Part shown: piece by piece, positions 59,205 to 60,577 of the stretch
Layout: the number at the start of each line of letters is the position of its first letter
Position numbering within the stretch: position 1 is the stretch's first letter
Assembly (NCBI GenBank): GCA_030550585.1
Contig: JAUQPB010000003.1
Location: forward strand, 98,333-162,332
Direction of reading: 5' to 3'
Origin: Thermoproteota archaeon
Lineage (GTDB): Archaea > Thermoproteota > Thermoprotei_A > Sulfolobales > Ignisphaeraceae
DNA length: 64,000 bases
Translations under genes and position numbers: made by a program
Notes under the pieces: generated by a model
What the model was told of the DNA's origin: nothing
The model's database searches: none
The model's input: the letters and a program-made list of their open reading frames with translations, nothing else

Positions 59205-59483
59205 CTAATCGCATTTGCATGTACACATATTGATTACCTCTACAAATGTATCTAAACCCCTCTCAGATAGCTCTCCTATTACCTTGGGCATTTTCTCTAG
59301 TGGAAATGCATATAGGGAGCCGTTTATCTTTATTCCATCCATTAGCTCTACCAGCCCCTTGGATCTATATCTCTTCCCTTTTATGGTGACCACAGTTCCA
59401 TTCATTGTCTTGTAGATCTTTATCTTAACATTCCTTGGCACATTTTGAGCTACCTTCAGCAACACATATCCAGATGGCTTCAC
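59205..59483 (-). CDS. Small hypothetical protein (C-terminal CTCKCD)
   Basis: 92-aa ORF overlapping the upstream gene by 4 nt (ATGA-type coupling). Confidence 0.65.
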   Translation of the reverse strand: MKPSGYVLLKVAQNVPRNVKIKIYKTMNGTVVTIKGKRYRSKGLVELMDGIKINGSLYAFPLEKMPKVIGELSERGLDTFVEVINMCTCKCD

Positions 59484-60034
59484 TGTTTTTCAACCTCTTC
59501 TAAACATAGATCCTCTCTACACCTTGTACTAGCCTTGGTTAGAATATTGGCAACCGATTTGCTCCTTTCAAACATTTTAATTATTCCTCTAAGTACATTT
59601 TCTCGAACAGTCAACAACGTCTTTACACATTCGATTAAATCACTGTTTCCAGTTTCTCTTAACCTCTTCAACAGCTTCTCTATGCATTCGTCTATATGGA
59701 TGAGCGCTGTGGTAGAGTGCTTTAATGCACACCAAATGCTTTCCCACGATGATCTAACATCCGTGCTACCGCCCTTCGCACTCTCAAGCTTTTCAACCAG
59801 GAACAGCGCTTGACCGACAAGCTTTCTCTGCTCCCTAAAAGAATCGATAATATCAGAAAAGATTGGTGCTCCAACATAAGAATCCGATTCTATTAGATGT
59901 TGTTCAACATGATTAAGATGGCCAATGGCATATATAAACTCTTGTATTAAAGCCTCCTCCCAAACAGCAGACCTACCAGCCTCGCCTTTATCCCCAACTA
60001 ACTGCTTAGCCGATTCCAACTGGGCTTGTGACAT
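59480..60034 (-). CDS. Hypothetical alpha-helical protein
   Basis: 184-aa ORF; first gene of the two-gene unit. Confidence 0.7.
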   Translation of the reverse strand: MSQAQLESAKQLVGDKGEAGRSAVWEEALIQEFIYAIGHLNHVEQHLIESDSYVGAPIFSDIIDSFREQRKLVGQALFLVEKLESAKGGSTDVRSSWESIWCALKHSTTALIHIDECIEKLLKRLRETGNSDLIECVKTLLTVRENVLRGIIKMFERSKSVANILTKASTRCREDLCLEEVEKQ

Positions 60035-60043
60035 ATAAGATAC

Positions 60044-60075
60044 CCATTTTTATGCAAATTCTTGCATAAAAATGG
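60044..60075. promoter_or_regulatory. Perfect 14-bp inverted repeat, 4-nt spacer
   Basis: CCATTTTTATGCAA-ATTC-TTGCATAAAAATGG, about 10 bp upstream of the ATG of the 59480..60034 gene. Confidence 0.85.
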
Positions 60076-60211
60076 CTAACTTGGCTAATAAATTTTACCC
60101 CTAGTTCTAATTTCATCATAAGTAATGCTAAGTTTTGTAGCAAACTTCTATCTGTTTTTGCAATGAAAATAATAACCAGCTAAATGTAACAATATTTGAG
60201 GTTGAGTTCGA

Positions 60212-60577
60212 TTGGATATAAATACTATTTTGAATTCAAGAAAAGGTATAGAAAAAGTTATGGGAGATGTTCTAAGGGTTTTAAGGCTATATAGAAGGCT
60301 GTGGTTATCTGAAATCCACATGGAGATAGAGGGCATGAACTCAACGTTAAAAGAAGAGGTGCCTAGTTATAACGATGTAAAGAGGGCTGTTAAAGAGTTG
60401 AGCAACCTAGGGTATGTACATGTAGAGAAAGGGATTAGAGGTTCTTTGCAGCATGTACATGGAATAGAGGATTATCTTGTAACAATAGTCGATGATGTAA
60501 AAATAGTCAATGCTTTGACTAATGACAAAAAGCTCTCTGAGTATATGAGAATAAAATATGGCTTTATGGAAATGTAG
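60212..60577 (+). CDS. Predicted winged-helix DNA-binding protein
   Basis: 'VLRLYRRLWLSEIHMEIEGM...SYNDVKRAVKELSNLGYVHVEKGIRG'. Confidence 0.7.
   Translation: MDINTILNSRKGIEKVMGDVLRVLRLYRRLWLSEIHMEIEGMNSTLKEEVPSYNDVKRAVKELSNLGYVHVEKGIRGSLQHVHGIEDYLVTIVDDVKIVNALTNDKKLSEYMRIKYGFMEM

Follow-up and report, generated by a model that had tools for sequence, protein, structure and literature searches.

A conserved palindrome ahead of orf92 operons in heat-loving archaea, a candidate autoregulatory operator

A perfect inverted repeat stands ahead of a two-gene operon, orf184-orf92, in the 64,000-nucleotide stretch of Thermoproteota DNA that was analyzed (the window). Judged by its sequence record, the palindrome is a genuine regulatory element, retained across several families of heat-loving archaea and having essentially a single target. 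By the same comparisons it tracks orf92, and neither orf184 nor the nearby winged-helix gene, the orf92 protein being its probable reader. We propose, giving this reading an even chance, that the palindrome is an operator lying over the core promoter of the orf184-orf92 operon, with orf92 as its binder and autorepressor.

The palindrome and its conservation

The original prediction had described fully complementary 14-bp arms with a 4-nt spacer in front of the two-gene module, and these are indeed present at positions 60044-60075 (no strand assigned): CCATTTTTATGCAA at 60044-60057, ATTC at 60058-60061 and TTGCATAAAAATGG at 60062-60075. The palindrome lies upstream of orf184, 9 bp from its ATG (60034, minus strand). 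No other inverted repeat in the whole window has arms of 12 or more and a spacer of 3-10, and none arose when the window was simulated 15 times with a first-order Markov model. A search of the 1.76-Mb genome for the 32-mer, with an N4 spacer and up to 3 mismatches allowed, gave this one match, against 0 for the control; the palindrome is thus far beyond chance. A direct repeat TGGCTAA mentioned in the same prediction does exist, although its two copies lie at 60073-60079 and 60082-60088 and not within 60072-60086; it is not conserved, although one close relative has it in part.

The module itself comprises orf184 (59480-60034, minus strand), encoding a 184-aa helical protein, and orf92 (59205-59483, minus strand), encoding 92 aa from a GTG start. 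The two reading frames overlap by 4 nt (59480-59483), which makes the translational coupling proposed for them plausible. Their description as orphans stands in part: neither protein has a Pfam or NCBIfam family, but homologues of both are found in many genomes of the phylum.

Of the loci that carry the operator core TTATGC-N8-GCATAA (60050-60069, no strand assigned; dyad at 60059/60060), 23 are intact and one is decayed, and the spacer measures 8 bp at every one of them. Its inner letters vary in paired fashion, the outer T/A letters lengthen the arms variably, and at the divergent G156 locus the half-sites vary symmetrically (TTATGT-N8-ACATAA). Homologues of orf184 occur in all 10 other genomes of the genus, and ahead of 9 of these 10 genes stands the core or a one-letter variant of it (one letter off in G001 and G006), not an identical 32-mer. 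Among the 11 same-genus genomes the exact core has one site in seven and two sites in one, the reversed control giving 0.

A survey of 231 genomes of the class returned the exact core 28 times in 26 genomes, the reversed control matching in 6 genomes. Eighteen of the 28 sites directly precede an operon of this type (17 intact, one decayed); surroundings were read for nine of the other ten (all but G085), most of which fall inside long reading frames, and judged by these surroundings the sites away from the operon look like chance occurrences. Since the exact core is nearly single-copy, a genome-wide repeat or regulon was rejected. With two mismatches allowed there were 7-14 sites per genome versus 2-7 in the reversed control, and a small regulon of such weak sites may exist. 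Genomic surroundings vary among species, the palindrome and the operon remaining together. The element is thus kept with its two-gene operon in relatives and is not a scattered repeat, the two outcomes that the original prediction had taken as speaking against it being loss among close relatives and genome-wide scatter; the regulatory, operator-like character it had suggested is supported on both counts. A partial literature search, at the level of titles and abstracts, found no description of this element.

Genes that accompany the palindrome

The palindrome is present at all 23 short-form orf92 loci (18 exact, 5 near-exact), just upstream of the operon and in several families, which is the arrangement of an autoregulated operator-regulator module, with the operator conserved adjoining the regulator gene. 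In contrast, it occurs in only 1 of 10 genomes that have orf184 without orf92, a co-occurrence for which a naive Fisher test, kinship ignored, gives p = 2.6e-7. The nine genomes with orf184 and neither orf92 nor palindrome are G009, G163, G171, G174, G202, G293, G361, G371 and G386. The sole exception, G035 (L013, L058, L095), carries an intact palindrome before an orf184 interrupted by stops, and orf92 was not found there; by its sequence this locus is a decayed copy of the operon. G136, the other genome of that genus, has an intact version.

The distribution of orf92 is wider than that of orf184. In genomes of family f9 that lack orf184, the palindrome immediately precedes orf92 at 10 loci (L071-L080), with exact cores in eight and cores one letter off in G153 and G154; no gene but orf92 is therefore shared by every intact site, and autoregulation by orf92 becomes the economical model. 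Outside the class but in the same phylum, G326 has palindrome, orf184 and orf92 together, and its genus includes four genomes (G293, G361, G371 and G386, listed above) that have orf184 with neither of the other two. The count of orf92 loci leaves out proteins of ~205 aa with an orf92-like domain (L081, L083) and the interrupted L082, none of which has the palindrome upstream. In such proteins, found in other families, the orf92-like domain forms the C-terminal part, and one of them was without a Pfam family.

An unlinked transcription factor might instead read the palindrome, orf92 being merely its regular target. Such a factor would suit the lack of a recognised DNA-binding domain in orf92, most known archaeal regulators being helix-turn-helix (HTH), winged-helix or ribbon-helix-helix proteins. 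However, a genome usually has a single strong site, which lies at an orf92 operon, and autoregulation is a more economical account than a factor maintained across several families to serve a single small operon; we regard the unlinked factor as unlikely.

Promoter position and the remaining readings

A candidate TATA box, TTTATTAG (60085-60092, minus strand), would lie ~29 bp upstream of the dyad; it is weak in this genome and clearer in relatives. The promoter-distal arm of the palindrome itself, TTTTTATG, is an alternative candidate. A TATA motif model, which is noisy, located strong TATA-like boxes in G003, G004, G008 and G010, 19-33 bp ahead of the dyad; similar boxes were seen by eye at about -19/-20 from the dyad in G007, G136 and G326, the last having a second candidate further upstream, at -37. 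No separate TATA box was evident at the f9 loci, where the left arm (TTTTATG) may, from its sequence, serve as one. Transcription initiates ~25 bp downstream of the centre of the TATA box, so boxes 19-33 bp before the dyad predict a start within the palindrome, and transcripts would then lack part of the hairpin.

These predicted starts bear on the alternative already raised in the original prediction, a hairpin in the 5' leader, and make it less likely. In its fuller form, the palindrome would be an RNA hairpin beside a Shine-Dalgarno-like sequence, bound by orf92 or folded according to temperature, and would serve post-transcriptional autoregulation. Inner positions at offsets 2-4 do covary as Watson-Crick pairs (35 of 57, where shuffling gives 20.0 and none of 20000 shuffles reached the observed value), several T-G combinations would be G-U wobbles in RNA, many loci have GGTG- or GGGG-type sequences after the right arm, and the predicted fold of orf92 would be compatible with RNA binding as well. 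Yet covariation of the inner pairs is expected of both an RNA stem and a symmetric DNA site, in the latter case one whose reader drifts; the invariant 8-bp spacer fits a DNA-bound dimer better than a tolerant loop; and with the TATA box that is evident ~19-20 bp ahead of the dyad in G007, G008 and G136, the start would fall into the right half, so that no hairpin would be made. A search of Rfam gave no match at the palindrome, only a sub-threshold one elsewhere. On this sequence evidence we prefer the DNA operator, the RNA hairpin being improbable though still to be weighed.

That the winged-helix protein, which as predicted is encoded divergently to the two-gene module (60212-60577), is a dimeric regulator binding the palindrome can be dismissed as extremely improbable, because its distribution does not follow that of palindrome plus orf92, a pair present in 23 genomes: among these it is adjacent to the palindrome operon in only three (G000, G005 and G006, where it is near and divergent), unlinked in six (G001, G003, G008, G127, G136 and G326, distant in the last three) and undetected in 14, some of whose assemblies are incomplete (G002, G004, G007, G010, G121-G125, G129, G130, G153, G154 and G156), and conversely it is present in many palindrome-free genomes, such as G013, G018, G019 and G029. 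Homologues of this ORF, which has a TTG start, occur in several families of the order and align from the first residues.

Under the operator reading, the palindrome would overlap the core promoter of orf184-orf92 from the TATA box to the transcription start, and an orf92 dimer would sit on it with one subunit per TTATGC half-site. Bound orf92 would then keep TBP, TFB and RNA polymerase from assembling and so repress the operon that encodes it, and its C-terminal CxCxC might shift occupancy with metal or thiol-redox state.

The orf92 protein, its partner genes and known systems

The AlphaFold2 model of orf92 is alpha/beta (pLDDT 89.5). In topology it resembles a ferredoxin-like fold supplemented by a beta-hairpin, whose region, GTTVTIKGKRYRSKGL, is basic. 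Invariant in the 12 first-aligned members are G29, Y39, G43, G50, Y58, P61, L72, L77, C87, C89 and C91. Some f9 members have fewer cysteines, the CxCxC being incomplete in L072-L075, and therefore the signal may not be universal. In G002 (L009:867-1140) the orf92 start is frameshifted relative to an upstream GTG, which may be a genuine lesion or stem from the assembly.

Some evidence speaks against orf92 as the reader of the palindrome: it has no HTH, belongs to no recognised DNA-binding family and, as modelled, has only insignificant fold matches. Neither its alpha/beta model nor Pfam places it among HTH or winged-helix proteins, Pfam giving no match for the orf92 of the window and no significant one for its family; the best hit of a fold comparison with the PDB, at E 0.025, is not significant. 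Cas2, HMA and PII-like ferredoxin-fold proteins resemble it in the predicted beta-alpha-beta topology, but without a significant fold match (Cas2 ~0.1) or a sequence match; the resemblance to Cas2 was rejected as sub-threshold.

The predicted model of orf184 is a helical bundle (pLDDT 77.7), and the protein ends in RCREDLC. Its invariant residues E27, E32, H39, H42, E44, H46, E49, C102, H106, H113, D115, E116, E119, C172 and C177 suggest metal binding, and the gene would be a passenger or an effector. No known family or significant fold match was obtained for orf184. A CsoR/RicR metal repressor was rejected (the match covered only 27-35 residues, with E 0.005-0.013 and 16-17 bits versus a cut-off of 175), as was a ferritin-like or rubrerythrin diiron protein (best Foldseek E 0.53, to sulerythrin); PADLOC returned no defence match for the three proteins of the locus, and an anti-phage defence or toxin-antitoxin module was rejected on that ground. 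Resemblances to LplB and HAS-barrel seen in the searches were likewise sub-threshold and were rejected.

At the f9 loci, in 9 of 9 cases with downstream sequence, orf92 is followed by the gene of a thioredoxin-like protein that carries a CPAC motif (Pfam Thioredoxin E 0.0028, sub-cut-off). In the g43 genomes orf92 and the thioredoxin-like CPAC gene are followed by a UPF0047 protein and further small genes (L116:3884-5604; L076-L080). Thioredoxin-like homologues also occur elsewhere in the genome of the window (G000:C4:307974), where the palindrome is absent.

Together with the CxCxC tail, these partner genes, His/Cys-rich helical or thioredoxin-like, point to a metal or thiol signal. More tentatively than the operator itself, we suggest that orf92 could represent a new HTH-less family of archaeal regulators, a ferredoxin-like dimer whose basic beta-hairpin would read TTATGC-N8-GCATAA, which would sense metal or thiol state through CxCxC, and whose effector genes, the His/Cys-rich helical protein or the thioredoxin-like protein, would be swapped between lineages. 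An unannotated archaeal protein family thereby gains a function open to testing and a defined site of 20 bp. If true, hyperthermophilic archaea would have a regulator lacking any domain of the HTH type; the set of DNA- (or RNA-) binding folds used by archaea would grow by one, and the orf92 family would be tied to thiol and metal proteins.

Among autoregulated archaeal operons, some with repressors of the Lrp, TrmB and DtxR types have operators over the TATA box or the start site. The arrangement described here is similar, in that the palindrome would overlap the core promoter of the operon encoding its likely regulator; however, those repressors use HTH or winged-helix domains, neither of which orf92 has. 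In Haloferax volcanii a thiol-based regulator of the TrmB family is described as a single winged-helix domain (PMC9426492). Like orf92 it is a small archaeal protein with a thiol or redox link, represented here by the thioredoxin-like partner in one lineage, but its winged helix differs from the predicted ferredoxin-like fold with CxCxC of orf92.
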